From Branchiostoma floridae (lineage: Eukaryota; Chordata; Leptocardii; Amphioxiformes; Branchiostomatidae), in contig NC_049981.1 of the NCBI RefSeq assembly GCF_000003815.2, positions 19,395,155 to 19,459,154 on the forward strand: DNA of 64,000 nt. The letters are read 5' to 3'. Position 1 is the stretch's first letter. Each line of letters opens with the position of its first letter. Of this stretch, positions 2,041-55,344 are shown one piece after another. The translations under genes and the position numbers were made by a program. A model generated the notes under the pieces. That model was not told the DNA's origin. It was given only the letters and a program-made list of their open reading frames with translations, and did not search any database.

Positions 2041-2580
2041 CATTTCTCATTCACTCAGCTCCACAAGGCCTGAGCTGGTACAATACACACACACTCCATT
2101 CCTTTGACTCTGATTTCTGTTTTATCTCATCATTACACAATGTACATTACACAGCATCATGGTGACTATAGAGATTGTCAACCTTCAACTCAGCTCAACA
2201 AGGCCTGAGCTAGTACAATACACACACTCCCTTCCTTTGACTCTGATTGCTGTTTTATCTCATCATTACACAACGTACAGTATACAGCATCATGGTGACT
2301 ATAGAGATTGTCAACCTTCAACTCAGCTCAACAAGGCCTGAGCTAGTACAATACACACACTCCCTTCCTTTGACTCTGATTGCTGTTTTATCTCATCATT
2401 ACACAACGTACAGTATACAGCATCATGGTGACTATAGAATGTCAACCTTCAACTCAGCTCGACAAGGCCTGACCTGGTACAATACACACACTTCCTTTCT
2501 TTGACTCTGATTGCTATTTTATCTCATCATTACACAACGTACAGTATACAGCATCATGGTAGCTATAGAATGTCTGTATT
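2041..2580. repeat. Tandem array (~133 bp x4) derived from Helentron ORF 3' end
   Basis: The landmark AAGGCCTGA recurs at 2065, 2200, 2333 and 2464, giving periods of 135, 133 and 131 bp. Each unit contains TCATCATTACACAACGTACA followed by AGCATCATGGT. On the minus strand this reads as the last codons of the EEP domain (YSxHDAV.CTLCNDEI). The copy nearest the Helentron, about 2510-2580, is the actual coding end of the EEP frame. The array therefore grew from the terminal coding segment plus adjacent 3' sequence. Confidence 0.8.
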
Positions 2581-2972
2581 ACACCATGATTAACAACAGC
2601 TGACAGTTGTGAAATGTACACATGGTCAATGAGAGTACATCTTTCAGTTGTAGGAGACTCTATCAACTGTTTGAAGCCATTTTGCATCAAGAAAGAAAGG
2701 ATCATTTTGTTTTCACTTGACATCAAATTTTCATTAAAGTCACCAAGAATCACTGTGTTACTTCTTTCCACTGCAGACAAGTGCCCCAAGAGTTTCTCCA
2801 AACTGGCTATGAATGAGTCTTTGCGAACATTTGGGGGTCTATAAATGGCTACAATTAGATGTTTCACAGGCATGCAGTCAGCAGAAACTTGCATAACCAC
2901 ACATTCTAGACTGATATCATTTGGGATGGGAATTTCAGAACACTTGTATATGTCACGTACATAATACATATA
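2514..2972 (-). pseudogene. C-terminal half of the Helentron EEP endonuclease, out of frame
   Basis: Continues the EEP domain in the next frame. Visible motifs are LIVAIYRPPN, VILGDFNENL (the GDFN signature), CTLIDHVYI, and YSYHDAVYCTL at the position where EEP nucleases have Ser-Asp-His. That last motif has Tyr in place of the catalytic Asp; the tandem copies beside it encode His there. The join with the upstream frame lies at about 2957-2970, where two 7-base near-repeats (GTACATA/ATACATA on the plus strand) abut. A 7-base duplication is the simplest cause of the frame break. The domain is thus doubly damaged in this copy unless the break is an assembly error. Confidence 0.8.
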
Positions 2973-5900
2973 CTGCCACGCCTCCATGACTGGAATTCCT
3001 TGTCGCATTAGAAGCTTCCTCGCAAGCATGCCCACTTGATCTGTCTTTACGAAACATCTTAAAACTCTCCAACTGAAACTGGGAGGACTGCAAATTTTCT
3101 GACAGCCATGTCTCAGTCAGGCATATGATATCAGCTTCAACCAAACAAGTTGACTTCAGACTTTCAAAGTTCTTTTTAATAAGTCCTTCAGTATTGTGAT
3201 GGACAATGTTCAACACTTCACCGACAGATCTGTCACCAACATTTGTAAATGGGTTGGATACATATTCGAAATGCTTCATCTTATTCACTGCCTCCTGCAC
3301 TTCCTCATCACAGTAGATGGACTCCTGCTTATAGTTTGTAATGTGAAGACCGCCTATGGAACATACCCTACTCAAGGCCACATACGCCATACCTGAAGCA
3401 AAAATATTTTTCATGGAGACAACTACTTCAGGAACTGTCATGCCCTGTACTTTGTGTACTGTGCAGGCCCAGGCTAGCTTGATAGGAATTTGGTAGCGTT
3501 TGACTTTACTTAATTTCTTCAAGTTGTCCTCAATCTGACGAATCGGAACTGAATTCTCCGGTAGACTACTGGGAACTGCACTTTTTTCTCTTTCAAGCAC
3601 ACCTGCCTTTGGATTATCAAACTTCACAAAGACAGTTGCACCATCACTTGCATCTTGCTGGCCACCTGTTACACCTGTAACTGTTCCAAATGCACCGTTA
3701 ACTAGACCATCCTCAACATTGACATTTCTACAAAGCATGACACGAGCACCAATCCCAACTTTGACCACATCAGGGAGGTCGTCTTTATCTCCTTGTGCAT
3801 GAGGTCGTCTTGTCATTGAACCTGTGGTGGGATCTTTGACAAAATCTGAGGCTTCAAAACATGTAACATCTGAACACCTGAGATTCAACATCTTGTCATT
3901 ATAATCTACAACAGCTTTATTGGTGGAAAAGATGTGAAGTGCATCCTTAGGATAATCACTTGATGCAAAGTCTGTAGATAACACCCTTGATGATAGAGTT
4001 TTGTCATCTTCATCAGAAAGTTTGTCTTTTTTTCTCTTTACCCTCATTCTATTCAAAAGGTTTGCAAAGGCAGCATCATCCTTCTGTCTCATGATTTCCT
4101 CAAGTTCAACAACTTCAAAGATTGGATTCCACAAGTCAATGAAATCTTTTCCCCTGTAGAGACTTTGTCCCCTGACTGGAGGGATCTGATACATGTCACC
4201 TACTGCCAAGATGCTCACATTTCCAAAGTTTGCACTTGACCTTGACTGTGTCAGCTGACCCAATCTACCATGAATAGAAGACATGAGCTTCATGTCGACC
4301 ATTGATACTTCATCTACAATCACAATTTTGAGGCTTTCATACTGAGCACGCAAAGTGTTAAGGGTACTTTCAGACAAGGGCTGATACGTCTTCGTAACAC
4401 ACATCAGATGAAAGGCATGGTGGACAGTGCTCCCACCAATATTGAATGCAGCAGTTCCTGTGGGTGCCGTAAGAAGGACAGAGACCTTGTCAGGGTTTTC
4501 TTGTGCCTTTCCTAGTAACCTGGTAGCTTCATAATATATGCATTTTATGAGATGGCTCTTTCCAGTCCCCGCACCACCCGTCACAAAAATATGAAAGGGA
4601 TCTGGTCGCTTTCCCTGTGCAGTTTCCATACACCACTTCCTTACAAAATAGAAGACCCCCTGTTGCATTGGGTTGAGTGACTGCATCATGGGGACCGCAG
4701 TTTTATACTGGATCTTCGTCTGGCAGGCTTCTAGGGTAAAGCTTCTTTCTTTTGATTTGTTAGTCGTCGCTAGGTCAGGAATGTCATCCTCAGTGCCCTC
4801 AATAACCTCATCCACTTCATTTTCTCCCCTCCTATCTAGACAATCAAGTCTTTCTTGTTCCACTTCGGGGAAGATCTGGGCCCAAACATCTTCTAGATTA
4901 CCATCTTCTGCGTCTTTACGAGCCTGCTCAAGTTCCTCAACATTTTGCTCAAATTTACGCCTATTTCCATTCACAATGACATTTACTTTATCCTCCCTGT
5001 CTGATATGGGAGCAAAGCCATTCGAGTAGAATTCTTCATACTTTGCATATTGTGGTGGTTTCAACTGTGCATCAAGGTAGTGTGGCAAGTACAACTTGAG
5101 CAATGTCAAGTAGAATCGCTCTGGCTCTTTCTTTTTATTGAATTTGGCAAAGCGGATGACAGCTGGATCAGATCTTGTACGTTTTTGTACAGCCCCATAA
5201 TTATCCCTCAACACATGCTTTGCTTCCCCTCTGGAAGACTGCTGAGCATTTTCTTGCTGGCCTGAACAAGAAACGACGCGATATTCGGAGACAAACTCTG
5301 CTGCACACATTGAACGGAAAGGTTCTTCTTGTGGCCTCGCCTTGTACCGATCCATAATGCTCGGCATCCAGATATTTTCTTCATCACCGTTTCCCTCACT
5401 TGCAAGCTTCTGAATGTCGGCCAAAGGTTTTGACAAGCGATTAGCTTGTTCATCTGTTGGAATGAATGTGACTTGTCTTGAGCACTCCTTCAGGTTCAGG
5501 CTACAGACCCGATAGACAGCCTCCTGGGCACTCACTTCCCTGTGGTGAAGGTAGGCATTGCCAACTTTTCTCATTTCTGTCAGTACATCCTCGTTGCCTT
5601 CCCTTGCCTCTTTCTGAGCCTGTTTGAGCAGCTTTCCCATTTCTCTTTCTGCTTTGCTGATATATGATACTATGTACTTGACACAACTGTACGCATCGAG
5701 AACATATTGGATGTCCATGTTCGCGTTCCAAGCTCGGAGCAGATGTGGATTGAAATTGTTCACCCACATGTCCTTTGGCTCGCGTCTGAGGAATACTTGC
5801 TTCCTGTTTGCAATCAAGTTCAAAGCGTCACAGACCTGTGCAGTGGTGAGATTGGCCTCCTTGAGAACGTCCTCAGTGGAGCACTTCTCTGGCTCTGTTT

Positions 5901-8900
5901 TCTTGTCCAACACATCCCAGAATTTTTTCAGGTCAGATTCGGCTTGCTTCTTCCTTCCAGCAATGGATGCTGATTCTTCATCGGTCAGGTCCTGTAGGGA
6001 GACAGGGCTGCACAGAAATGTCTGATTCACTGGAGGCTTAGGGAATCCAAACCTACAGATCTTGCCACCTTTCTTGCATGACGATGTATGACCCTTTCGG
6101 TGCATTTGAACCTGGCTAACTATGTCAAATAACTCCTTATCTGTTTCTGAGTTTGGCAGCTGACAGCACACATATCTGTCCACAAAAGAGCAGATCTCTT
6201 CTTCAGAATTTACACCCAATTTTGGTGCATCTTTCACCCAAAACAAACAATGGATATGGGGTGAGCCCCTTTGCTGGAATTCAGTCCTCGTGAACGTGTC
6301 TATGACCTCACCGATTGGCTGCGATGGAGATTTAATGAGGTGTTTGAAAAACAGCTTGACTCTGCGATCAAACATGCGAGCGGCTGTGACAGGATTACTC
6401 TTCAAAATGTCACAACGCTCTTCCCACGACAAGTCGCTTACTGGTACTGTGCCATGATCTTGTCGAATCGCCTCTAACACTTCTGGCCAGCGCAAATCTG
6501 CAGCAGAAAACGTAGCAAACCACGTGGGAATTCCCAGCTGTCTTATCATTGCATACAATTCATTTAGCGCCTTGTCCCAGAACTGCGGAGTACCCCTGAC
6601 TGGCTGAAGGAAGCGATAGCCTTCATCTGACTTAAGTATAGCCTGTAAGTCCTCTTTGTTTGACAACATACCAGCAGATATTTTATGGCCGCCACTTGTC
6701 GTCGGCGAACCTTTGCGCATAGATATGGAAATATTCGACTGTATGAAGCGCAACTCTGTTACGTATTGTGCAAAGAATATGTAGTTAGTGTCGCTTGCAA
6801 ACCGCGTATCTGCACCCATAAGGCGTGCCTTGAAGTACTTGCTGGGCGTAATACGTACATCACGATCAACATTAAAAGAAAACTTTCCAGTAGGGAATTG
6901 AACAGGGAAGGACATTGCCTCTCCCCCAACCTCCTGGAACACAGAAATTGGTTTGCTCCCCTCTCCTGGAGCCACACACATGACGCGTTCATCGTGGTGG
7001 TCAAGAAAATCCTGTCCTATATCTACTGGCTGGAGGCAAGTGTCATGTGGCAGTCCCCGCAAGCGGCTGTCTAGTTCCTCTTCCTCGCTCAGAGCTTCTT
7101 CTTCCATGGTTTCTTCCTCGCTCAGAGTTGCTTCTTCCACAGTTTCTTCCTTGCTCAGAGCTGCTTCTTCCATGGTATCTTCCTCGCTCAGAGCTGCTTC
7201 TTCCACAGTTTCTTCCTTGCTCAGAGCTGCTTCTTCCACAGTTTCTTCCTCACTCAGAGCTGCTTCTTCCATGGTTTCTTCCTCGCTCAGAGCTGCTTCT
7301 TCCACAGTTTCTTCCTTGCTCAGAGCTGCTTCTTCCATGGTTTCTTCCTTGCTCAGAGCTGCTTCTTCCACAGTTTCTTCCTCACTAAGAGCTGCTACTT
7401 CCATGGCTTCTTCCTCATTTACCTGTCGAATAACGTTGTCTGTTTCATCATCTTCCATATCATTCCTAGTTGGCCCTTCCATATGATCCCCCTCTTCAGT
7501 GACAGACTTGCGGTGCTCAGGAGCAGTATGAACTTCTAAGGCGCCATTCCCTCCTTGTTCAGCATCAGATGGTTCAACAAGGCCTCCTTCTTCATTCCAA
7601 GAAGTAGCCCAGTCTGCATCAATAGACGTACCGCTGTAATGTTCATTATTTTCAACAAGATACTTCAAAGCAACATCAACCTTCAATGGACTAATTTGTC
7701 TATACATGTGATGCCCACTGTACTGTAGCTTCCTCTTAAGTTTCACCTTGATTAACTGAGCTTCTGAAGGCATTCTGGGAAGGATTGCATGTGTTTCACT
7801 CACATCTGCTGGGACACACACTACTGGGCCAACAACACCTTTCTGACCCCCTTTCGGGAGAGCTGCAACTTTCATGAATGGTATTCTCTTGGCTATCAGT
7901 TGGGACTCCAGAGTATTGAGACTTTTCAGCTCAGGGGGTATTTCTGGGAGCTTCATCTTATTACTCTGAGCCTCGTATGGAATTGTCTTTTTATCTATCA
8001 TGTGCCTATGACAACAGTGACATATCCACTCTTTACCCCTAGATGACTTAGCTATGGGACACGCATGTGGGCTGCAGTCCACGTTGCATTGATGTACATA
8101 CGTACCTGTAAGACAGTGCTTAACAGCCCGAACATACCTTGATTTTTTACCATCACGATGACAGATTACGACTTGATTGCGAAACAAAAGCCTGTGACAT
8201 ACAGTGCAAACATATTCTGGTCCCTCTTTGCATTCCATCTGGAACTGTTCAATGTCCTTATTGACATCCGTTAAATTCTGCTTCTTCTCTCTGTTAATCT
8301 GCACATTTCTTTTTTTCAGATCTCTTCGATCTGGATCCGTATGATATTTATCTTTCTCATGGTCTCGCTTCTGCTGGGCATGGTTGTCATCAGTGTGATA
8401 GCGCTCCAGGGCTCGCTCCTGCTCCCTTTCGCGCTTCTGCTGGGCATAGTCATCATCCGTGTGATAGCGCTCCTGCTCCCTTTCGCGCTTCTGCTGGGCA
8501 TAGTCATCATCAGTGTGATAGCGCTCCAGCGCTCGCTCCTGCGCTCTATCTCGCTTCTCCTGGGCGTGCTGTTTATCTATGCTATATCGAGTCTTCTTTC
8601 CATCCCGTTGGGCCTGGGCATATTTCGGATCCTCCTGGTATCGTTTCCTTTCTCGGTCTCGCCTGGCCCTTTTTCGGTCGTCGTCATCATTATTGGCATT
8701 AAGCACAGTCTTTCTCTTGATGCAGGCAACTTGTGAGGCTTCTGTAGTTTCCTCTCTGTGGCGCCGTGACATACTCCTTGTCTGTCTTTTGTTGAAAACT
8801 GTTGCTGTGACAACATCAAAATGGTTACCATTCGTATGTTGCATGTATATAGCATTTCTACCATCTAACATGCTTGTATTACTCTCACACCATGGGTACT

Positions 8901-9585
8901 TCATCCATTCCCACTTAAAGTTAAAGCCATGCTTACCGTACACAAAGATGCGTCTTCCCAGTAGTGAAGACATCGCATTTATTTCTACCTGTGTGGCCCA
9001 TGCTCGAGGATCTGCTGGATGACGATTCTGCATGCTTCGACCATCACGAGACAGGTACTGGTCCATGGTTTTTTCAGGGTGCTCGAATGCCAACCAAGGC
9101 CTGTAAACATCTTCAGACAATGTTGACATATATTCAACTGTACGCTGTCTTAATACATCATGATAGTCTTGGGTGCCACAAATAAGGTAACTAATAGCTC
9201 TATAGAAACAATTACCATCCCCAATAATTCTGATGGGATTGATTGGTGCCTCCAAAGGGACATTCCTTTCCTGAATATTGAGATATCGTTCAACAGAAAG
9301 GTTCAGCTGGTCTGCCAGTTCCAATTGATCATTTCCTGTGAAGGGATTGAACATGAACTCTTCCTTCCACTCCCCTGTTTCCACTACCTCTGGGCTATCA
9401 GCTGGTTCCCGCTCCCTTACCTCTACATCCTGGTCATCTGCTGGCTCCCGCACTCTTACCTGTACTTCCGGGTCATCTGTTGGCTCCTGCACTGTTACCT
9501 CCAATTTCTGCTCATCAGCTGGTTTCTTTGTTTCCTGCTTTGCCTTCCAGGCATTCAACTTCGTCAATTTCTTACGCCGAGGCAT
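2953..9585 (-). CDS. Helentron RepHel polyprotein with OTU and partial EEP domain
   Basis: An unusually long intact frame. I prefer the start at 9585 (MPRRKKLTKLN, 2210 residues) over an in-frame Met 13 codons upstream because of its basic, Helitron-like N-terminus. Positions below count from the upstream Met. The OTU domain has GDGNCFYRAISYLICG near 134 and NGNHFDVV near 264, so the catalytic Asp/Cys/His are present. A Cys/His-rich segment and a DUF6570-like LPEIPPELKSLNTLESQLI follow near 480-610. The Helitron-like N/HUH motif HIHCLFW is near 1122, and the two-tyrosine-type DAYSCVKYIVSYISK is near 1308. The PIF1-like helicase has Walker A GGAGTGKS near 1682, Walker B IVIVDEVSMVD near 1768, and late motifs AWACTVHKVQG and AYVALSRV. 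An EEP domain starts near 2133 (DIICLTETWL, with the metal-binding Glu) and is cut by a frameshift after GGVAVYV. It acts in rolling-circle transposition. Confidence 0.9.
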   Translation of the reverse strand: MPRRKKLTKLNAWKAKQETKKPADEQKLEVTVQEPTDDPEVQVRVREPADDQDVEVREREPADSPEVVETGEWKEEFMFNPFTGNDQLELADQLNLSVERYLNIQERNVPLEAPINPIRIIGDGNCFYRAISYLICGTQDYHDVLRQRTVEYMSTLSEDVYRPWLAFEHPEKTMDQYLSRDGRSMQNRHPADPRAWATQVEINAMSSLLGRRIFVYGKHGFNFKWEWMKYPWCESNTSMLDGRNAIYMQHTNGNHFDVVTATVFNKRQTRSMSRRHREETTEASQVACIKRKTVLNANNDDDDRKRARRDRERKRYQEDPKYAQAQRDGKKTRYSIDKQHAQEKRDRAQERALERYHTDDDYAQQKREREQERYHTDDDYAQQKREREQERALERYHTDDNHAQQKRDHEKDKYHTDPDRRDLKKRNVQINREKKQNLTDVNKDIEQFQMECKEGPEYVCTVCHRLLFRNQVVICHRDGKKSRYVRAVKHCLTGTYVHQCNVDCSPHACPIAKSSRGKEWICHCCHRHMIDKKTIPYEAQSNKMKLPEIPPELKSLNTLESQLIAKRIPFMKVAALPKGGQKGVVGPVVCVPADVSETHAILPRMPSEAQLIKVKLKRKLQYSGHHMYRQISPLKVDVALKYLVENNEHYSGTSIDADWATSWNEEGGLVEPSDAEQGGNGALEVHTAPEHRKSVTEEGDHMEGPTRNDMEDDETDNVIRQVNEEEAMEVAALSEEETVEEAALSKEETMEEAALSKEETVEEAALSEEETMEEAALSEEETVEEAALSKEETVEEAALSEEDTMEEAALSKEETVEEATLSEEETMEEEALSEEEELDSRLRGLPHDTCLQPVDIGQDFLDHHDERVMCVAPGEGSKPISVFQEVGGEAMSFPVQFPTGKFSFNVDRDVRITPSKYFKARLMGADTRFASDTNYIFFAQYVTELRFIQSNISISMRKGSPTTSGGHKISAGMLSNKEDLQAILKSDEGYRFLQPVRGTPQFWDKALNELYAMIRQLGIPTWFATFSAADLRWPEVLEAIRQDHGTVPVSDLSWEERCDILKSNPVTAARMFDRRVKLFFKHLIKSPSQPIGEVIDTFTRTEFQQRGSPHIHCLFWVKDAPKLGVNSEEEICSFVDRYVCCQLPNSETDKELFDIVSQVQMHRKGHTSSCKKGGKICRFGFPKPPVNQTFLCSPVSLQDLTDEESASIAGRKKQAESDLKKFWDVLDKKTEPEKCSTEDVLKEANLTTAQVCDALNLIANRKQVFLRREPKDMWVNNFNPHLLRAWNANMDIQYVLDAYSCVKYIVSYISKAEREMGKLLKQAQKEAREGNEDVLTEMRKVGNAYLHHREVSAQEAVYRVCSLNLKECSRQVTFIPTDEQANRLSKPLADIQKLASEGNGDEENIWMPSIMDRYKARPQEEPFRSMCAAEFVSEYRVVSCSGQQENAQQSSRGEAKHVLRDNYGAVQKRTRSDPAVIRFAKFNKKKEPERFYLTLLKLYLPHYLDAQLKPPQYAKYEEFYSNGFAPISDREDKVNVIVNGNRRKFEQNVEELEQARKDAEDGNLEDVWAQIFPEVEQERLDCLDRRGENEVDEVIEGTEDDIPDLATTNKSKERSFTLEACQTKIQYKTAVPMMQSLNPMQQGVFYFVRKWCMETAQGKRPDPFHIFVTGGAGTGKSHLIKCIYYEATRLLGKAQENPDKVSVLLTAPTGTAAFNIGGSTVHHAFHLMCVTKTYQPLSESTLNTLRAQYESLKIVIVDEVSMVDMKLMSSIHGRLGQLTQSRSSANFGNVSILAVGDMYQIPPVRGQSLYRGKDFIDLWNPIFEVVELEEIMRQKDDAAFANLLNRMRVKRKKDKLSDEDDKTLSSRVLSTDFASSDYPKDALHIFSTNKAVVDYNDKMLNLRCSDVTCFEASDFVKDPTTGSMTRRPHAQGDKDDLPDVVKVGIGARVMLCRNVNVEDGLVNGAFGTVTGVTGGQQDASDGATVFVKFDNPKAGVLEREKSAVPSSLPENSVPIRQIEDNLKKLSKVKRYQIPIKLAWACTVHKVQGMTVPEVVVSMKNIFASGMAYVALSRVCSIGGLHITNYKQESIYCDEEVQEAVNKMKHFEYVSNPFTNVGDRSVGEVLNIVHHNTEGLIKKNFESLKSTCLVEADIICLTETWLSENLQSSQFQLESFKMFRKDRSSGHACEEASNATRNSSHGGVAVYVLCT
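7080..7415 (-). repeat. In-frame 33-bp coding minisatellite (acidic 11-mer)
   Basis: About ten 33-bp units within the Helentron polyprotein encode repeats of the type EEAALSEEETV / EEAALSKEETM, giving an acidic, probably disordered linker between the DUF6570-like and Rep regions. The 33-bp period preserves the frame, and unit-to-unit differences are mostly Glu/Lys and Val/Met switches. Copy number probably varies between element copies. Confidence 0.85.
8310..8620 (-). repeat. In-frame charged repeats (YHTDDDYAQQKRERE type)
   Basis: Imperfect coding repeats in the Helentron polyprotein encode YHTDDDYAQQKREREQER and longer variants with an inserted ALER. The result is a strongly charged helical segment between the OTU domain and the Cys/His-rich region. 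Related charged repeats occur in other Helitron N-terminal regions. Spacing is a multiple of three throughout. Confidence 0.8.
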
Positions 9586-9700
9586 TCTTCCTGAAAGATC
9601 ACAAGTGCTAGAATGTAGCAGCATTCTTTGAGACTATAGCATATCTAAAAATATTGTGTCAACAAATTTTATACATGTATAATATAACATAAGATAATAA

Positions 9701-25869: not shown

Positions 25870-28800
25870 CTAGAAGAATTTTGGCATGAAGCCGAACGAT
25901 GGTGATGGTCCCATCCTCCCCCTGCCGTCTCTCATGCCTCGACCTGGGATCACTTGGTGTTCTGGTAGCGGACCAATGGGATCAAACCGCGGTCCCAGGG
26001 GAGAGGGTCTGATCGGCTGGGACGGGCCAAACCCCCTCCCCATCCCAGGGGGAAAGAAAGCCCCAGGCATCCCGGGGGGATATCTGTCATAATCTCCTCC
26101 GATGAAGCCAGGGGGATATGTTGGGGGGAAGGAGTGGGGAGGGGTGGGAATGGCCCAGGGGGGCGGTGGTGGGTGGAAGGAACGCTGGTGGCGCATCCAC
26201 TCTCGGGCCTTCTTACGGTCTTGGTAGTGCTTCTTGTACAGCTGCAATGGAACAATCCATGCATTTAATAAGTCTTTTCTGTTTGTAAGTGCTATGAACT
26301 ACTATGATATCAGTATGTATAGTTGATAATATAAAAAGTCATGAAACAAAGAATGAAAAATTTAAACTGCATGTAGTCTTCTAGTTCATTACTTACCTCT
26401 TTCCAATCCAGGGTTGATGTTTTGTTTTTGATATCTAAAAAATACAGTTGGACAAAATTTAGAATTGTTTCATGCCAATCTATTAATATATTTGTTACAA
26501 TTCCATTGTTTCTTAATTCATTGATGAGAAAAGAATGGAAGGTCAAAATGCCAATTTAGCCAGGTAGAAAACCTAAAAATAATCCAAGAAATCCATTTTT
26601 TTAGAACTCAGTCCTACTGATGCAAATATCTGGAAACTGAAGCACCATTCTCACCTCCAAAGTCCCTGAGGTATCTGAATCTCCAGAGACTCTGGTCATT
26701 GGCAACACTGTGTAAGTCCTTACATACAGCAGACAGTCTGACCAGGCTTAACACATCCAGGTGCTGTAACACCATCAACTGGGGACAGATCAGATGGAGC
26801 AGGTTTAGTTTTTATATGGTCTAAAATTAAGCAAAGCCTATAATGGTTAAAAGAAAAGGATTTTAAGGCATACTCCAGACAAGTATCCTGTGTCCTGGTT
26901 CTGCTAATGATATATTTCTGAATCCCCAAACATTAAGGTATCGGCAACTTCTCATTGAAGTTGAACTAGGCAGCAGTTGCAATATACAGGACCAATATTC
27001 TGATACCTCTCTAAGTACCCTCCAGTCCAGATAAATTACAGTCAGGTGTAACATATTACATGTACATGTATATTGTGAACAACCATTGGACAAACTGATG
27101 CTGAGTAATTTAGTTAAAAAGTTAACATATACATTTGTATATGTATCTATTTATTGTTGTCAATCTACCATTTAAATGGCTGAACAAGTCACAGTGGGAG
27201 CATTTCCCAATTGCTCTTGCCATGGATACTATGGACACTTTCAAACTCCAACTCACCTGAATTTCTGCGGACAAGGCCAGAAGACCATGCAGTGCAGGGA
27301 GCCCCAGTACTATAAAAAAAGTCAAATTTGTTTAAATCTCATTCTGGGCCAAACAACCTAACTGTTATGACACAATCACACCTACATATAAAAGATACTA
27401 GCTTAGCAGCTGATGTTGCTCTTAGAATACTACGTAAGATAAGAAAATACTTACCCTGTCTCATGTCAGCCAGTAAGGGTTGAGCCACCGAATCCTTAAA
27501 CACTTTAGACAACTGGGGAAGGTTCTTGTAGACTCTATCAGGGTCTGAAGAGCAATTTGGAATCAATTAGTAGTAAAAAAAACAGGGCTGTCTCCAGTTT
27601 TTCAGTCCCACTCATTGCTTAGAAGTCCATGTTGTGGATTTTCATTTTATATAATCTGTCATTTTAAGCTCACTACTTTTTCATTAGTTTTGTGTCATGA
27701 AGTTCAGATTTTTTTGACGGACATGGTGAAAGTTTTGTCCATCCTTACAGGCACATTTCCATGCCAGGATGAAGGGACGGGACTTGGAGACAGCCCTGGA
27801 AAAACATATTAAATGTTTATATACAATAATCAATCATCTTAAGCTAAAAATGTAACTGAGCATGGCAATTGGCCACTACAATCAACTTCAATCACAGAGT
27901 TAGTTTCAAAGATGATGATGATGATTAAAATGTAGTTCTTCTGACCTTGTACATTGTGAAATGTGAAACTGTCAGTCTTCAGCTGGACCTGGTGGTGCAT
28001 GCTGGGATTACTCCCAGTAACCACACCTGTACATCAACATATCAAACACAAGTTATTAGCATTTTGCAGCTATGTTTAGCTGTTAAGCTTAATCAACATC
28101 AAAAGTCCCTATATCTATGTTGATTTGATCATATGGATGCCTACGTCTGCTACGTACCATGAACCATCAAGAGGGACCCCATAGGAACCATAGTGAGACC
28201 GCATGATGACCCCTCACAGGCCATGTGTCTGTAGGTCATCTTGTACATTCCTGGTGACTTCCACCCATTAGGAAGGGTAAAACCATTGATGCTCTCTTGG
28301 TCTTCTGGGGAAGATGGCTCCTGAGCATGAGAAAAATGGATGCATATAGATCAGTACTAGTACATACAAAACAAATGCCTGACCTCAACAATTCTAACAA
28401 AAATGTCAAAGAAATAGATATAATAATGTTCCAAGACATGAAAAATAAAGGGAAAGGTAAAAGAAGTCTGATAGCCATTTTGGCACCGTAAGGACAGTTG
28501 GTTGTTAAAAAACAGTGCCCTTTCCTATCCTTTCACTGTTTTCCAACTGAAATCAGGTGCCCATGTTTACACCAGGGTGGGGTGAAGAAAAGTGCATTTC
28601 CCAAGAACACAATGTCTAGCAAGGAATCTAACCCATAACATTTTTGTGTGTGTCTGTTAGCCTTGCCACTTGGTACTACAAAGGGGTCTGGTACCAGAAA
28701 GTTATTTTGAATCCAGAATCATTTTCTTGACAAACAACAGAAATATTTTTAATACCATCTTTCACTCTCACCTTTGCTGAAAATCCACTTTCCATCATAA

Positions 28801-29924
28801 GCACATGTAGCACCATACACAGCGCATCATGTCTGCTCTTCACATCATTGGCACGGTAGACTTGTTGTAGCACCAATGGCACAGAGTCCACCGTTGCTTC
28901 CCGACACAGCATTGGTTCTGAGGGGATCCCTCCCACCCCTGCACCCTCCATTGATAGGCTCACAGCTTCCTCTTCCTCAACATCCATCAGAACTTCTTTA
29001 TCTTGCCCATCTCCATCATTGACTGCTGATTCTTCTGTGTCTACCACCACAGTTTCTTTCTCATCCTTGTTAACAGGGTTTTTTGATAAAGCTTTGTCTG
29101 GGTCTGCCTTTGTTGTGTCAGATTTGCTTGTGGCTAGTTTGGTATCATTGCCACAGCTTGCAGCATGTTCTGTTTGCTTAGTGTTATCTGTTTCTTTTCT
29201 CAGTCCACAAGCTTGTTCTGAGGAGGAATGATCCTGGCCTTGTGGCTGAGCTCTGTGATTGGTGGAAGGCTGGGGGTGTTCTGGTGAGGAAGGATGCTGC
29301 CCTTGTTGCTGAGTGTTGTGATTGGTTGAAGGCTGGTCAACAGATGCTAGTAGGATGTGGATGAGGTCTCCGGAGACAATACCGAGATCAGAAAGGGGTT
29401 TGTCATCACCAAGCAGTGCATCTCGACCATTCAGGCTTATCTCAAATGGCATGTCATCTCTGAAAATAAACAAAGCCTGAATCAATCAGTTTCAGTCCAG
29501 ACCTTTTCTACTTTAAATATATCATAACTATATGAAAGAGAGAGCTACTCAAAGAAAAACTACTGATAATCTAGTCTCCTTCACAGAATCCCAGCAGTGC
29601 TGGCTTTTATTTTATGAGCAGAGTGCAGGTCCACAACTTTCAACATTAGCTAAGGTTCTCTTATGCAGGGAGACGGAGTATCTGTGTAGAATCTCCCGCT
29701 CCCTGCATTAGAGAACCTTAGCCAATGTTGATAATCACAAACCAGCACTCCCTGCCTCCCCCCCCCCCCCCAAAAAAAAGCTAGCACTACTAGACAACTT
29801 ACCCGAGTCCATACTGCTCCCCCAGGACAGGAGCCAGCAGGGTTCTGAGCGTGCCCAGGGTGTGGCAGTCCTGTCCCACATCCACCCGGGTCTTCTGTCC
29901 ACTGATCTTCACTCGTAGCTTCAT
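25870..29924 (-). CDS. FBXO7: F-box only protein 7
   Basis: Nine coding exons join in phase to 576 residues: 29924-29803, 29459-28772, 28320-28158, 28026-27946, 27544-27455, 27309-27257, 26778-26655, 26434-26397 and 26241-25870. Residues 1-80 are a ubiquitin-like domain (MKLRVKISGQKTRVDV ... IVSGDLIHILL). A long acidic Ser/Glu-rich linker follows. The FP (PI31-like) dimerisation domain starts near SEPMLCREATVDSV and runs through EGSSCGLTMVPMGSL. The F-box is in exons 6-7 (LMVLQHLDVLSLVRLSAVC, then LWRFRYLRDFG). The C-terminus is proline- and arginine-rich with the FBXO7 signature PRFDPIGPLP and IPGRG. It is a substrate receptor of SCF (SKP1-CUL1) ubiquitin ligase that also binds the proteasome regulator PI31. 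Human FBXO7 is 522 residues; the extra length is in the linker. Splice sites are canonical. Start chosen because it opens the UBL and follows an acceptor closely. Confidence 0.95.
29641..29730. repeat. Short inverted repeat in FBXO7 intron 1
   Basis: Arms of about 32 bases (CAACATTAGCTAAGGTTCTC and its inverse GAGAACCTTAGCCAATGTTG, each extended by TTATGCAGGGAG or ATTAGAG variants) enclose about 26 bases. About 30 of 32 positions pair. It could be a miniature transposon or a hairpin-forming relic. It lies about 180 bases after exon 2's acceptor side. A poly-C run follows at about 29758-29770. Confidence 0.7.
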
Positions 29925-43189: not shown

Positions 43190-44620
43190 CCGCAACTCTT
43201 ATACGAAATGTCTTTCTGTCAAATCAAACTCACTGGGATAGAAAAAAAAACCTTTGTTCTCTGTAGCTATCGGGTCAAAAAATGTCTTTGTGTCATGTCA
43301 AATTCAAGAGGATAGAAAAACCTTTGTTCTCTGTAGCTATCGGGTCAGCAAATTTCTTTGTGTCAAGTCAAAATTAAGAGGATAGAAAAACCTTTGTTCT
43401 CTGTAGCTATCGGGACGGTAAATGTCTTTGTGTCATGTCAAACTCAAGAGGATAGAAAAAACCTTTGTTCTCTGTAGCTATCGGATCAGCAAATTTCTTT
43501 GTGTCAATTAAGTCAAACTTAATAGGATAGAAAAAACCTTTGTTCTCTGTAGCTATCGGTACGGGAAATGTCTTTGTGTCATGTCAAACTCAAGAGGATA
43601 GAAAAAACCTTTGTTCTCTGTAGCTATCGGTACGGGAAATGTCTTTGTGTCATGTCAAACTCAAGAGGATAGAAAAAACCTTTGTTCTCTGTAGCTATCG
43701 GTACGGGAAATGTCTTTGTGTCATGTCAAACTCAAGAGGATAGAAAAAACCTTTGTTCTCTGTAGCTATCGGGTCAGCAAATTTCTTTGTGTCAAGTCAA
43801 AATTAAGAGGATAGAAAAACCTTTGTTCTCTGTAGCTATCGGGGCGGGAAATGTCTTTGTGTCAAGTCAAACTTAAGAGGATGGGAAAAACCTTTGTTCT
43901 CCGTACCTATCGGGTCAGCAAATTTCTTTGTCTCCAGTCAAACTTAATAGGATAGAAAAAACCTTTGTTCTCTGTAGCTATCGGTGCAGCGAATTTCTGT
44001 GTCAAGTCAAACTTAAGAGAATAGAAAAAAATCTTTGTTCTCTGTAGCTATCGGTGCAGCGAATTTCTTTGTGTCAAGTCAAACTTAAGAGGATAGAAAA
44101 AAAACCTTTGTTCTCTGTAGTTATCGGTGCAGCGAATTTCTTTGTGTCCAGTCAAACTCAAGAGGATAGAAAAAAACCTTTGTTCTCTGTAGCTATCGGG
44201 TCAGCAAATTTCTTTGTGTCAAGTCAAACTCAAGAGGATGGAGAAAACCTTTGTTCTTTGTAGCTATCTGTACGGGAAATTTCTGTGTCAAGTCAAACTC
44301 AAGAGGATAGAAAAAACATTTGTTCTCTGTAGCTATCGGGACGGGAAATGTCTTTGTGTCATGTCAAACTCAAGAGGATGGGAAAAACCTTTGTTCTCTG
44401 TAGCTATCGGCTCAGCAAATTTCTTTGTGTCAAGTCAAACTCAAGAGGATAGAAAAAAACCTTTGTTCTCTGTAGCTATCGGATCAGCAAATTTCTTTGT
44501 GTCAAGTCTAACTCAAGAGGATAGAAAAAACGTTTTCTGTAGCTATAGGGACGGGAAATGTCTTCCTTTCAAGAGGAAGGGGGAAAGAAAGATCCTTTGT
44601 TCTCTGTTAGCCCACGCACG
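43190..44620. repeat. ~71-bp minisatellite, about 19-20 units
   Basis: Units of 70-75 bp share CCTTTGTTCTCTGTAGCTAT, then CGG, then AAAT.TCTTTGTGTCA, then GTCAAACTCAAGAGGATAG. Two subtypes are interspersed: one with GGTCAGCAAATTTC and AAGTCAAA, the other with GGTACGGGAAATGTC and ATGTCAAA. Open frames arise where the spacing is a multiple of three, and these are not taken as genes. Confidence 0.9.
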
Positions 44621-46903: not shown

Positions 46904-46909
46904 TTTATT
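46904..46909 (-). terminator. Polyadenylation signal of the cysteine-rich peptide gene
   Basis: TTTATT on the plus strand reads AATAAA on the minus strand, about 127 bases after the stop codon at 47036. Orientation and distance fit a short 3' untranslated region. Confidence 0.55.
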
Positions 46910-47035: not shown

Positions 47036-49216
47036 TTATCCCACATAAAAGGAACACCTGCGATTGCAGCAGTAGTGACCCACCACACGGCAGCGACGAT
47101 ACCAGTACCAACCACCACAGCGTCTCCGTGGGCAATATGACACACAAGGACAGCTAGCTCGCCGCCGCCGCCGTCCCCAGAGGCTACGTGCCTTACGGAC
47201 GCGCACTCCACCCTCGGGGGCCACGCCTGTAATATAGTATGTGCTCATGAAATCATAGAACGTAACCTGTTTGTTACAGAAAACAGTGGAAATGAATACC
47301 AGTAGTATTGCAGGAGGGTGGAAGAAGATCAAATTATGTCAATCAGTCAAGGCATTGAAGACTACTACCCCTGTCCAAAATCTATGGATAGAAGCTGTAC
47401 GTACGAGGGGTGATCATAAAGTTCTCGGCCTCACCAAGAAATAACAAACACAACTCAGATTTTCAGGCACAACTTCATAGTATGAAGTCTTTTATCAATA
47501 TCCTCCAAATTTCAAATCATTGGAGTCATTACTTTCCAGGCATTCGTTTTCCTAAATTAGAAGGTAAGTGGCGAGAAAAAAGTGGTGTGAATTGTGATCA
47601 GACATGTGTGGGTCTAGTTCCCCATGCCATAAATTAACAAAAGACAATGTCAAAATGTTTGATAATGATTCTCTTCCTATTTCAAGCAAAAAGAATTGGG
47701 TTTCTAACTTCCAGCAGCGCAAATTGACCCACACACTCAGGTCAGGTCAATTGTCCACGTTTTTTTCCTTCTCACTCACCTAACGTTACTGGGTGTCGCC
47801 TGCAAAGTAATGATCACACTAATTTGAATTTTGGTACATATTTATATAAGACTTTATACTTGACATCTATGCTTCGAAATCTGAGCTGTGCTTATTATTT
47901 CTCGGTAAAATCGAGGACTTATTGATAACCCCACGTACATATATAAAGTCTTATATAGATGTGTACCAAAATTCAAATTATTGTGATCATTATGTTGCAG
48001 GCGACACCCAGTAACGTTAGGTAAGGGATAACGAAAAAGAAGGTGGACAATTGACCTGCAACCTGAGGTGTGAGGTCAAATTGTCTGATCACACTTCACC
48101 ATTCTTTTCTCCCCACTTACCTTCTAATTTAGAAAAAAAACGAATGCCTGGAAAGTAATGACTCCAATGATTTGTAATTTGGAGGATATTGATAAAAGAC
48201 TTCATACTATGAGGTTGTGCCTGAAAATCTGAGTTGTGCTTGTTATTTCTTGGTGAGGCTGAGAACTTTATGATCACCCCTCGTAAGTCGATCAGCTAAG
48301 GCTCTGGTTACACATAGCCGGCTCTGGTTGGCAGCTGGTCGACTGCTAATCTCCAAGCAGATCTTGCGGTGGCATAACGCATAAGATACTAGGTTTGGGA
48401 AAGAGTTAAGCCGGCAGAGGAGTTTCATTCGCAACCGCGGGGCTTAACACAGGACGTATAAATCTTACCTTTATTTAGTGAATAGAACTACGTACAGTCG
48501 TATCAGAAATGTCCACGAAGTACACGAACATTTTTTTATTCATGATAATATATGGTCTAAGCGTCTCATCTTTTTAGTTAGACTAAGGACTAGGTGATAG
48601 ATGCTTACGCGCACTGCCCATGTCCGCCTCATCGGCACTAGCCCCAGTGTCTGTCAGTGTGGACGTGGTCCGAAGGGATTTCTGAAATAAACAGAAAGGA
48701 CTAAAAATTGAGAAAATCTTGATCTCTTTAAAGAACAAGTCATAAAACTTGAGGAGTGCTTTGTTTCCCCAGTAGATAATAATTGAAGGAAGTAAAAAGT
48801 TACATACAGACCCACTACACCATGGCGCAACTGAAAATATACCCTTCTTGGTGAAATGATGTCAAAGAATGTCGAGACGTTAGGAATTCCTCCAATGATT
48901 GGACATGTAAAAGGTCATTCTCATCCCATACTACAGACTGTTGCATTAGGTAGATAAGCCTTATGGAACTGTAGTTATGTACCAGTAGATGTCATACCGA
49001 GTAGAATCATTGTGCAACAAAATTATTATCATGACTAACCCCTCTGGATTAAGTACTCCTTTGAGGGGAAAAGTACATTCCAGACAACGATTATAAAGTG
49101 AAACGTACGTCATGAGGCTGTTGCGCCTTAGCCGGTAGGAGCGCAATCAGCACAGCCACCACACCCATAATCATCATCAGTGTTGTCATGGAGACGCGAA
49201 ATCCAGTCCACTGCAT
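47036..49216 (-). CDS. Secreted Cys/Arg-rich peptide precursor, candidate antimicrobial peptide
   Basis: Three exons join in phase: 49216-49109 (phase 0, GAC|GTACGT), 48681-48609 (TTATTTCAG acceptor, CGC|GTAAGC phase 1) and 47226-47036 (ATATTACAG acceptor, stop TAA). The product is 123 residues. Exon 1 is a signal peptide: hydrophobic core TTLMMIMGVVAVLIALLP, likely cleavage after AKA. Exon 2 is a Ser/Thr-rich acidic pro-region (TDTGASADEAD). Exon 3 has RVRK and then GRRRRR, a furin-type site, followed by a 40-residue tail with 8 Cys spaced C-x1-C-x3-C-x4-C-x8-C-x6-CC-x3-C, 8 Arg, 2 Trp, 5 Tyr and no Lys, Asp or Glu. This architecture is that of a cationic disulphide-stabilised host-defence peptide. 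The C-x3-C-x4-C-GGW part recalls mussel mytilins, but I cannot place it in a known family. A non-defence secreted peptide is the alternative. A mariner-like MITE fills much of intron 2. Confidence 0.7.
47404..48283. mobile_element. 880-bp mariner-type MITE with ~190-bp inverted ends
   Basis: The ends CGAGGGGTGATCATAAAGTT and their inverse are flanked by TA (47402-47403 and 48284-48285). The arms pair over about 190 bases with few mismatches. A second, inner pair of inverted arms (about 47700-47870 and 47945-48075, both containing the CAGTAACGTTAGG-type phrase) has its own related end sequence (TTATTGATAACCCC). This indicates a composite or nested structure. No transposase is present. TA duplication and terminal sequence fit Tc1/mariner. 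It lies in intron 2 of the Cys/Arg-rich peptide gene. Confidence 0.85.
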
Positions 49217-51535
49217 TGTAGCAACCTTGGCAGATAGAGACCATTGTCATTCCTTTTGCCTTTGAATTACCCCCAAAATGCAAGATAATTCTATATTGAT
49301 ATATGGTGGGAATTTTAAAATTACGAAGCTATATAGTTGCGTAAAGGTGAACATTATATGAGACATAAGTCAAACAAACCCTGTGATCCAATTCATAAGG
49401 TAATGCTACTAAAGTCCTCTTTGCTAAAATAACACTTCCAATTTTTGAACAACTTCTGAAGATGAAGATGAGTAGAGATGAGCAGACAATTTATGCAAAT
49501 GAAGGTAAAGTTTGCGACTGAAAAATCTTTTTTTTCTCGGCCATAACCGGGCTGCACAACGGTGGGTGAAAGTTTAAAATGTCAATACGCAACTAAGTTC
49601 AATAAACCCACAAGTGTGGACGCAGCCTAAGCTTTCTGTCAAGATAAATAGTATAAGTCACATTACAACCCCAACCCCCCTCCCTTCCCACAACCACACC
49701 ATACCACCACCTTGATTGGAAGAATTTACTACGCAGGTAAAGGTCTTTTTATAAAGTTACACTTACAGACTTACACGTACTGCACAGCTAAACGTGCACA
49801 TGCCGAGGAAATACGGCAAAGCAGACAGCAGCGCTAGCTCAGTAATGTGCTACCTACTGCAGAAACGTATGTTCAATATATAACAGGTGACGCCTGCCTA
49901 TTTCTTGGCGTAAGGTTTTGCTGTTCTTGTTGATTACTCCACGGCCTCACCTGGTTCCGACCACCAGATTCCGCCATGTCTCTTGTTGAACAGCAGAACT
50001 AGCGGATAAAGTCCCACAATTCTCGAAGGCCGTCCCTGCCCACTTAGTGTATAAGAACCTAAACACCGTACTTGCAGTATTTCTCACTGTTCTAACTTCC
50101 TTGTCGTCACAGCGAAAAGGTAGGTGTCAATGCATCTAATTGACCGGAATGTCAAGATGTATTCAAGCATACAGGTATGTTCCCGCCTTACCTTGAGGCC
50201 TACACTTTGACCTCGTACCTTTGATCTACGGTGCATCACCTCTTCACAACTGTACTAGTCTTTCTTGTTGTTGTAGCTGCTGTTCACTTTTGTCACTTTC
50301 CATCAGGAGTAGCAATCGGCTTCACAAAGTCTCTAATCACACCCCAAATTACAAGTGTGCTTATTATTAAGTCTAGGTCTGGTACACAAACTTTCTCCAG
50401 ACTTACTGATTGCGTCATTTCTCGTAAAAATGCATCACGTGATTCATTACCACAGTATTTGCATAAATCATATCTCATCATGTTAATCACCAACTAAAGT
50501 ACCTATCTGCGAAGGACAATGGAAATCCTTTAACCTCCGCTTGAGTTACCCTCAACCAGATTTTCCAATAAAAAGCCCACTGCAGTTTCAAACAAGCCGA
50601 CTAAGGACCAAAACTTACACCACTTACTCCATGCTCCAAGCGCTATCCACCATACAAAAATCACGACCAAAACACTACCAGAAAATTTGAACATCCTCTG
50701 CAGCACCGAAGGAAGGTGCCAGGAAGCTCATTATCGAACTTAACCGTCGTCTCCCCGAACCCTACTGTACCGATCTATCAAATATAATGAGGATCCATTG
50801 ACAGATTCTCTCGTTCATGATGAACACATGCAGTCACAGCCATAACATAACCGACAAAACCTTTTTGGCAAAGTTAAGTTTCAACGCAATATCCTCTTGC
50901 CTTTGTCACCTATGCTTTAATGATCTATAGGAGTCTAGAAAGTGTTTTCTGTTTCATGACTCGTTTCTGTAAGACAAAGAGTTAGATTAAAGAGCCTTCC
51001 TCTGACACACCCCAAGGTGATATTTGGAGCGTTTATAAATTAAAAAAAAAACACAGGGAAGATATGAGAAGGTTGTTCATTAGAGCTTACACTGTTAGGG
51101 TGATTTACAACTGAGCCGGTCTTGCGCCACAGGGCGGGTCAAAACGCTGCCTCTGACCACATCCATCACGTGTGTTTTACGCGGAAAAGGCCACGTAATA
51201 CAGCAGGCACTGTGGAAAGTCTCCGGAGAGATTACCGTAGGCGTTGACTCGTTTTCTTTTATGTGCAAACCTCAATAGAATACAGAAAGAAGACGGGGTG
51301 TGGTCACCTTGCTCCTGGGTAGAACGTCGTCAATGTTCAACACCAGTGGCATTGCTAAAGGGGTAAACGCAACATGGTATACTACAATATATTCAAGTGA
51401 TGTTAGTCGACAGTCAGATAAGACATTCTACTGTTACTGAAGAACACATTTTGACTGACGCCACTGCTTAGGGGCATGCGTACTTCCTCGTAACCAAATG
51501 ATATGAAGGATTAAGTAGTTTTGTATAACAGTTGC
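49217..51535. other. Upstream region of the Cys/Arg-rich peptide gene, then intergenic
   Basis: The minus strand has TTTATAAAAAG around 49745-49755, a possible TATA box about 530 bases above the start codon. An untranslated exon would be needed to use it, and AG acceptor-like sequence does occur just before the ATG. The remainder (to 51.5 kb) shows no recognisable gene. Confidence 0.3.
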
Positions 51536-52312: not shown

Positions 52313-52605
52313 AATGGTAAAAGTATTTCCATAGCATTTTTGAGGCCGGTTTGTTATTCACTGTGTCTAGGGCACGGCAGTACAGTGGAAGATGGACCCC
52401 ATCTCTTTACCTCCGCTAGCTTTTACCTCCCCAATCACACACCCATTTATACACCTGGGCGGGGTGCACGTGAGGAGAGTCGTGTAAAGTGGCTTTCCTA
52501 AGGGCGCAATATCAGTGGCATGCCAAGGGACTTGAACCCATGACTTTTGGTTTTTGGCCAAACGCCCTAACCGTTAAGCCAACCGTTAAGGCTTGACTTG
52601 ATTAA
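52313..52605 (-). mobile_element. tRNA-derived SINE, minus orientation
   Basis: On the minus strand the head contains GGTTAGGGCGTTTGGCCAAA and the B-box-like TGGGTTCAAGTCCC. The 3' part contains TGCCCTAGACACAGTGAATA, shared with the copy at 51536. A direct AACCGTTAAG duplication sits at the tRNA-like end. Confidence 0.7.
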
Positions 52606-54489: not shown

Positions 54490-54945
54490 ATAAAATATAA
54501 CTATTAAGTATAAAGCCTTTTATGAATGTCATCCAAAATTCAAATTATTATGATGATTACTTTGCAAGTGACATCCAGTAACGTTAGGTGAGGGAGAATT
54601 ACAAAAAAACTGGACAACTGAGCTGTGATCTGAGTCTGCGCAGCAACGTGTTTTTGCTGTACTGAAAGTCAGATACCGACTTGTTTCTTGTTGAAATACG
54701 AAGGGATCAAACATTTTCCAATTTTCTCCAAGATTTTATGGCACACAGCTCTGATCACAATTCAACTTTGTTTTTCTCGCAACTTAACGTTACCTACTAA
54801 TTTGGACGGACGTTAACCGGAAAGTAATGGCCACAATGAATTGCAATTTGCTGGATATTGATTAAAGACTTCATACTATACAATTATGCCTCGAAATTTG
54901 AATTCTGTGCCTTATTTCTCGGTGAGGCTTAGAACTTATTGATCA
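54490..54945. mobile_element. Decayed relative of the mariner-type MITE
   Basis: The left part contains CCAAAATTCAAATTATTATG and CATCCAGTAACGTTAGGTGA, matching the inner arms of the element at 47404-48283. The right part ends in TTTCTCGGTGAGGCTTAGAA, then CTTATTGATCATCC, matching its terminus. The left terminus is missing or too diverged. Confidence 0.65.
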
Positions 54946-55344
54946 TCCAACCCTGACCAGGTTACCCCTTCAACTCTTACCTTTCATGCTGTAGAATAGA
55001 ATGTTCAAAGACGTATTTCCCAAATCGTCTTCTCTTCATCTCCAAAAGAACCTATTTAGGAGACATTCTGTTAGCTATGATTGCCAGACACTCGCTATTA
55101 CTGAAGATGTAATGTTTACGAAGATGCGAGGTCTTACACGGAGCAGACACTTGGCGCCGACGTGCTCTTCTCATTGCATCGTATTGGAGAATTAAGACTC
55201 TCTTCGGAAGACGAGGCGAATAGGATGTAAAAACCAAATTTCAAATGTCCATTTTATTGCTGGTCGATTACTGTCTGCACGGACGGAAAAACCGTCAGTG
55301 CATTCCACGGTATACCAGCTGTCGTTAGGTCTTTGTATCGTTTG
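54946..55344. other. Intergenic, no feature recognised
   Basis: Short frames only, ahead of the GT microsatellite. Confidence 0.3.

Follow-up and report, generated by a model that had tools for sequence, protein, structure and literature searches.

A Branchiostoma gene probably encoding a secreted prepropeptide with a cationic eight-cysteine tail, a candidate host-defence peptide

Does a short gene on the minus strand of a 64,000-nucleotide stretch of Branchiostoma floridae DNA (the window) encode a new host-defence peptide? The initial annotation had proposed such a gene, and the exons that it named, 49216-49109 (108 nt), 48681-48609 (73 nt) and 47226-47036 (191 nt), are present where it placed them; both introns are of the GT...AG type, their phases (0 and 1) agree, and the three joined exons encode a 123-residue precursor. 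We searched the joined peptide, as had been suggested there, against approximately 5.8 billion proteins. Two proteins among 10 candidates gave E values up to 1, and both are Branchiostoma orthologues with full-length annotations. The better match is the uncharacterized protein LOC144863322 of a B. floridae x B. japonicum hybrid (here P0001; 97% identity, E 4.3e-75), and the other is an uncharacterized protein of B. lanceolatum (P0002; 65%, E 2.9e-45). They cover 100% and 99% of the model, respectively, which bears out the view that a chance assembly of these exons is unlikely; judged by this comparison, the locus is a real gene. It can be called new with respect to function, but the gene itself is already annotated as LOC144863322. 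A profile search adds only one more protein, Hypp6930 of B. lanceolatum (P0003), at E up to 10 among 3929 candidates, and the tail region of P0001, used as query, retrieves P0001 and P0002 only (2 candidates in all). Relatives outside Branchiostoma were found in none of these three protein searches (single-sequence, profile and tail region), all of which need shared 5-residue words, so that remote relatives could be missed. Within the window tblastn found no second copy of the gene (best other match E 0.14).

The beginning of the coding region probably requires a change to the 123-residue model: the joining of its three exons stands, but its start at Met 49216 probably does not. The annotated starts of both orthologues lie upstream of this residue (the N-termini are MSDTGGRNKVATMQWTG in P0001 and MGSKALKKQWTG in P0002), and P0002 has Lys at its position, so Met 49216 is probably not a conserved start. 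Upstream of 49216 the window's frame runs into a stop at 49249 and contains no further ATG before it, so that translation could begin earlier only from an additional exon. One candidate, at 49951-49977, which the initial annotation lacks, joins in phase to the AG acceptor just before 49225 to give 135 residues, and an in-frame stop at 50001 lies upstream of its ATG at 49977. Its nine residues (MAESGGRNQ) agree with the N-terminal MSDTGGRNK of P0001 at 5/9 positions, which is chance level and contrasts with the identity to P0001 of the first 78 residues of the 123-residue model; this mismatch may reflect alternative first exons or a gene-model artefact. Five places in the window reach 5/9 with the P0001 N-terminus, and only the one at 49977 begins with Met. 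Because the match is at chance level and four other places equal it, we grade this fourth, 5' coding exon as probable only, and the 5' boundary of exon 2 (49225) hinges on its being right. Exon 2 holds the signal peptide as well as Met 49216, and residues 2-32 of the 123-residue model are identical at 31/31 positions with P0001 and at 24/31 with P0002. A TATA-like site at 49753, inside the intron between candidate exon 1 and exon 2, leaves room, speculatively, for a shorter transcript that begins at Met 49216. The features of what is probably a Branchiostoma gene of four coding exons, with a secreted prepropeptide as its product, are collected in Table 1.

Table 1. Features of the gene and its last intron, in window coordinates
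Feature	Position	Strand	Remarks
Probable coding exon 1, MAESGGRNQ	49951..49977	-	Start Met 49977; in-phase GT donor at 49950
Coding exon 2 (VATMQWTG...QQPHD)	49109..49225	-	AG acceptor before 49225; GT donor at 49108
Hydrophobic signal segment MTTLMMIMGVVAVLIALLPAKA, A-x-A type cleavage site	49124..49189	-	By eye
Coding exon 3, pro-region, locally acidic	48609..48681	-	Canonical splice sites; tblastn 25/25 with P0001
Foldback (inverted-repeat, MITE-like) element in last intron, not part of the protein	47399..48288		152-nt arms, 97% complementary
Coding exon 4: end of pro-region, basic sites, Cys-rich tail, stop	47036..47226	-	Phase-1 intron ahead
First basic site RVRKAR (RVRKKR in P0002)	47186..47203	-	Ahead of the pentabasic run; missing from the initial annotation
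Pentabasic site RRRRR (SRRRR in P0001, RRRRR in P0002)	47159..47173	-	
Predicted mature peptide	47039..47158	-	40 residues, 8 Cys, 8 Arg, no acidic residue
AATAAA polyadenylation-signal-like hexamer	46904..46909	-	126 nt past the stop

The foldback element of the last intron has a diverged relative downstream, at 54506-54951 (71-79% identical). Elsewhere in the window, an uninterrupted minus-strand frame of 2226 codons (2953-9633) carries OTU, DUF6570, Helitron_like_N and PIF1 helicase domains; together with an adjoining endonuclease-like frame (by eye) just beyond it, at 2514-3116, it forms an intact-looking Helitron-type transposon. Two further minus-strand segments, 25870-26298 and 28676-29485, contain proline-rich and ubiquitin-like stretches reminiscent of both ends of an FBXO7-type gene; neither has a Pfam match at E 0.001. 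At 43206-44535 a 71-bp unit is repeated in tandem about 18.7 times (88% matches), and a tRNA-like match on the minus strand at 52525-52581 (34.4 bits, model positions 8-63 of 71) is possibly a tRNA-derived repeat.

The predicted protein has the layout of a signal peptide (by eye), a pro-region, a basic cleavage site and a cationic Cys-rich C-terminus. The predicted signal stretch is helical in the structural model of P0001 (residues 22-37; pLDDT about 80 there, with a mean of 50.6 overall). The pro-region had been described as acidic, and this holds for its first 37 residues (net charge -3) but not for the whole 47 residues, whose net charge is +1 in all three proteins (window, P0001 and P0002) and thus not clearly charge-neutralising. 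On the joined exons we confirmed the pentabasic site and, behind it, the 40-residue tail with the cysteine spacing and composition that had been reported: its Cys intervals are 1,3,4,8,6,0,3, it is the protein's C-terminus and runs to the stop codon, and its net charge is +8 in the window, +9 in P0001 and +5 in P0002, with no Asp or Glu. The additional basic site, RVRKAR, is possibly an alternative processing site, and its use would give a 50-residue peptide. A secreted precursor from which the cationic Cys-rich tail would be processed is well supported by these features of the sequence.

Comparison between species points to the tail as the part that matters. Between the window and B. lanceolatum P0002, identity is 24/31 over the signal part, 14/36 with 6 gap columns over the pro-region and 34/39 with 2 gap columns over the tail. 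All 8 Cys and the motif CGGWYWYRRC are invariant in 3/3 sequences (window, P0001 and P0002, the tail-less P0003 being left out); the C5-C6 loop varies in sequence and length (6 or 5). Since the Cys tail is conserved and the pro-region has diverged, the tail, with its variable loop, is probably the gene's selected product. Retention of the open frame and of all 8 Cys between species while the pro-region diverged also makes it barely credible that the locus is decayed or mis-annotated, as might be proposed from the chance-level match of the 5' exon to P0001 and from P0003, a B. lanceolatum gene model without the tail. P0003 matches P0002 in 86/93 aligned columns as far as LWGG or LWSG; beyond this point it has an unrelated tail that lacks the Cys region and has no counterpart in the window. 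It counts against the Cys tail being the product, and it may represent a further gene model, an allele, the protein of a second locus or that of an alternative transcript; in the last case some product would lack the Cys tail.

We consider it probable, with moderate confidence, that the gene encodes a host-defence peptide released by furin-type processing and belonging to a new family, found to date in Branchiostoma alone. The signal peptide would be cut after AKA, a furin-type protease would cut at the run of five Arg or at RVRKAR and so remove the pro-region, and the eight cysteines would oxidise to four disulfides; the resulting cationic Arg/Trp/Tyr-rich peptide would then bind and permeabilise microbial membranes or envelope components. 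Each of these steps, from secretion and cleavage to oxidation and microbe binding, is proposed by analogy with the layout common to such precursors, for example that of BjAMP1 (below). Thus the precursor anatomy and the conservation of the tail support one part of the initial proposal, a processed cationic Cys-rich tail, and the antimicrobial role that it also proposed is still an inference. High conservation of the tail would fit a peptide hormone or other ligand as well, and the predicted structures are of low confidence (pLDDT 62.9 for the tail and 50.6 for P0001).

The main functional rival sees in the tail a signalling ligand or peptide hormone released by processing. Besides a tail better conserved than the pro-region, two basic cleavage sites precede it, as such a ligand might have. 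We nevertheless judge this unlikely, since no relatives were found outside Branchiostoma, the tail is strongly cationic with no acidic residue, and the differences between the two closest sequences cluster in the tail. The window and P0001 differ at 4 of 123 shared residues, every one of them within the last 45 (P 0.016 under an even spread, a post hoc figure), and three of the four fall between C5 and C8; change concentrated in the peptide itself in this way is also known from defence peptides. A toxin-like or barrier/gamete-coat secreted peptide (a predator deterrent, or a mucus or egg-envelope protein) is more improbable still. The secreted Cys-rich layout is common to toxins, and the top PDB match to the tail is a venom polypeptide (6px7), at a non-significant E of 0.93; however, the typical spacing of knottins (inhibitor cystine knots) fits no subset of the 8 Cys.

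How does the proposed host-defence peptide relate to known ones? Comparisons with Pfam, NCBIfam and PDB and by predicted fold gave no significant match and no antimicrobial peptide family, so the statement that the spacing belongs to no nameable family holds at the sensitivity reached in these and the protein searches. The motifs CGGWYWYRRC and SCPCVSYCP and the names LOC144863322 and Hypp6930 occur in no PMC paper, a scope outside which most subscription papers lie. A resemblance of part of the tail to mussel mytilins had been suggested, and it does not hold up. In the portion of the mytilin literature consulted (PMC7168163), these Mytilidae peptides share with the tail 8 Cys, small size as secreted peptides (34 and 39 residues in two examples) and a mostly cationic character, but their array is C-X3-C-X3-C-X4-C-X11-C-X-C-X-C-X2-C and an anionic C-terminal extension follows the mature peptide. 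The spacing here is different, the mature part is C-terminal and the tail ends at the stop, and we rejected a mytilin identity. As far as the consulted sections of its description go (PMC4683396), BjAMP1 (gene Bjamp1), a tested antimicrobial peptide of Branchiostoma japonicum, is similar in its amphioxus origin and comparable precursor anatomy, with a signal peptide, anionic region, basic cleavage site and cationic C-terminus. It differs in having a 97-residue precursor and a 21-residue peptide that contains 2 Cys and is predicted to be helical (PMC4683396). By eye, the printed 21-residue peptide has no motif in common with the window peptide.

A bolder reading, which we think has an outside chance of being right, makes the tail a trans-defensin (beta-defensin-like) domain that stands alone and carries a fourth disulfide, with its origin in the amphioxus big-defensin lineage or in an ancestor shared with it. 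Cys 1,3,4,5,6,7, which read C-x5-C-x4-C-x8-C-x6-CC (x5 before CC in B. lanceolatum), would then correspond to the six defensin cysteines, and Cys 2 and Cys 8 would form an extra pair (Cys2-Cys8). Eight known defensins (five beta-defensins from vertebrates plus three big defensins) served as a comparison panel, in which the intervals span 4-6, 3-4, 9-13, 4-6 and 0. The array 5,4,8,6,0 thus fits only with tolerance and with two extra Cys, because x8 lies outside the panel range of 9-13. Ranges of 4-7, 3-5, 8-10 and 5-7, set after the array had been seen, accommodate it and are likewise reached by 0.7% of random 8-Cys 40-mers and 44/2520 gap permutations; looser ranges (panel plus or minus one) raise these chance rates to 3.3% and 165/2520. 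An alpha-defensin-like register, C-x1-C-x3-C-x13-C-x6-CC, fits about as well (0.6% of random 8-Cys 40-mers), so the beta-defensin match is ambiguous and post hoc. The alpha-defensin motif itself, C-x1-C-x3-4-C-x9-C-x6-10-CC, agrees in C-x1-C-x3-C and C-x6-CC and fails at the middle interval, which is 13. In the CS-alpha-beta motif of cis-defensins a C-x3-C is followed downstream by C-x1-C, and here the sole C-x1-C lies upstream.

Gene structure, and perhaps the predicted fold, agree in part with the defensin reading. A phase-1 intron precedes the Cys exon, after the first codon base and 24 residues ahead of the first Cys, but about a third of all introns are phase 1, so this is weak evidence. 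Trans-defensins are characterised by the Cys pairing 1-5, 2-4, 3-6 and a three-stranded sheet; the low-confidence model of the tail (pLDDT 62.9) has three short strands and no helix. Big and beta-defensin genes have in common a phase-1 intron on the 5' side of their Cys-rich region, according to the part of the source consulted (PMC7203481). Big defensins resemble the present gene in this intron, in a C-x5/6-CC ending and in the near-beta-defensin array of the six-Cys subset; they differ from it in that the window peptide has 8 Cys rather than 6, an x8 interval, no hydrophobic N-terminal domain (by eye) and no profile similarity. Three small HMMs (whole panel, vertebrate and big-defensin) scored 9.3, 8.3 and 9.8 bits with the window tail and 10.7, 6.8 and 11.2 bits with that of B. 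lanceolatum. Of 500 shuffled versions of the window tail, 69 to 436 reached the score, depending on the comparison (nine in all), so there is no residue-level defensin signal, and no PDB defensin was matched by sequence or by fold. Given this and the alternative register, we keep descent from defensins as a bold case only. If this were true, cephalochordates would have an eight-Cys trans-defensin, its defensin module linked through a phase-1 intron to a leader and pro-region of its own. Such a peptide would occur alongside canonical big defensins in one genus and would show a beta-defensin-like architecture in a non-vertebrate chordate. Membership of the defensin superfamily apart, the peptide may by analogy work as a defensin-type peptide does.

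Few antimicrobial peptides have been described from amphioxus; the portion of a review available to us names big defensin, BjAMP1 and the ribosomal protein RPS23. If the favoured reading as a processed host-defence peptide is right, a conserved cationic 8-Cys peptide whose array lies outside all the families tested would add a new scaffold to them.
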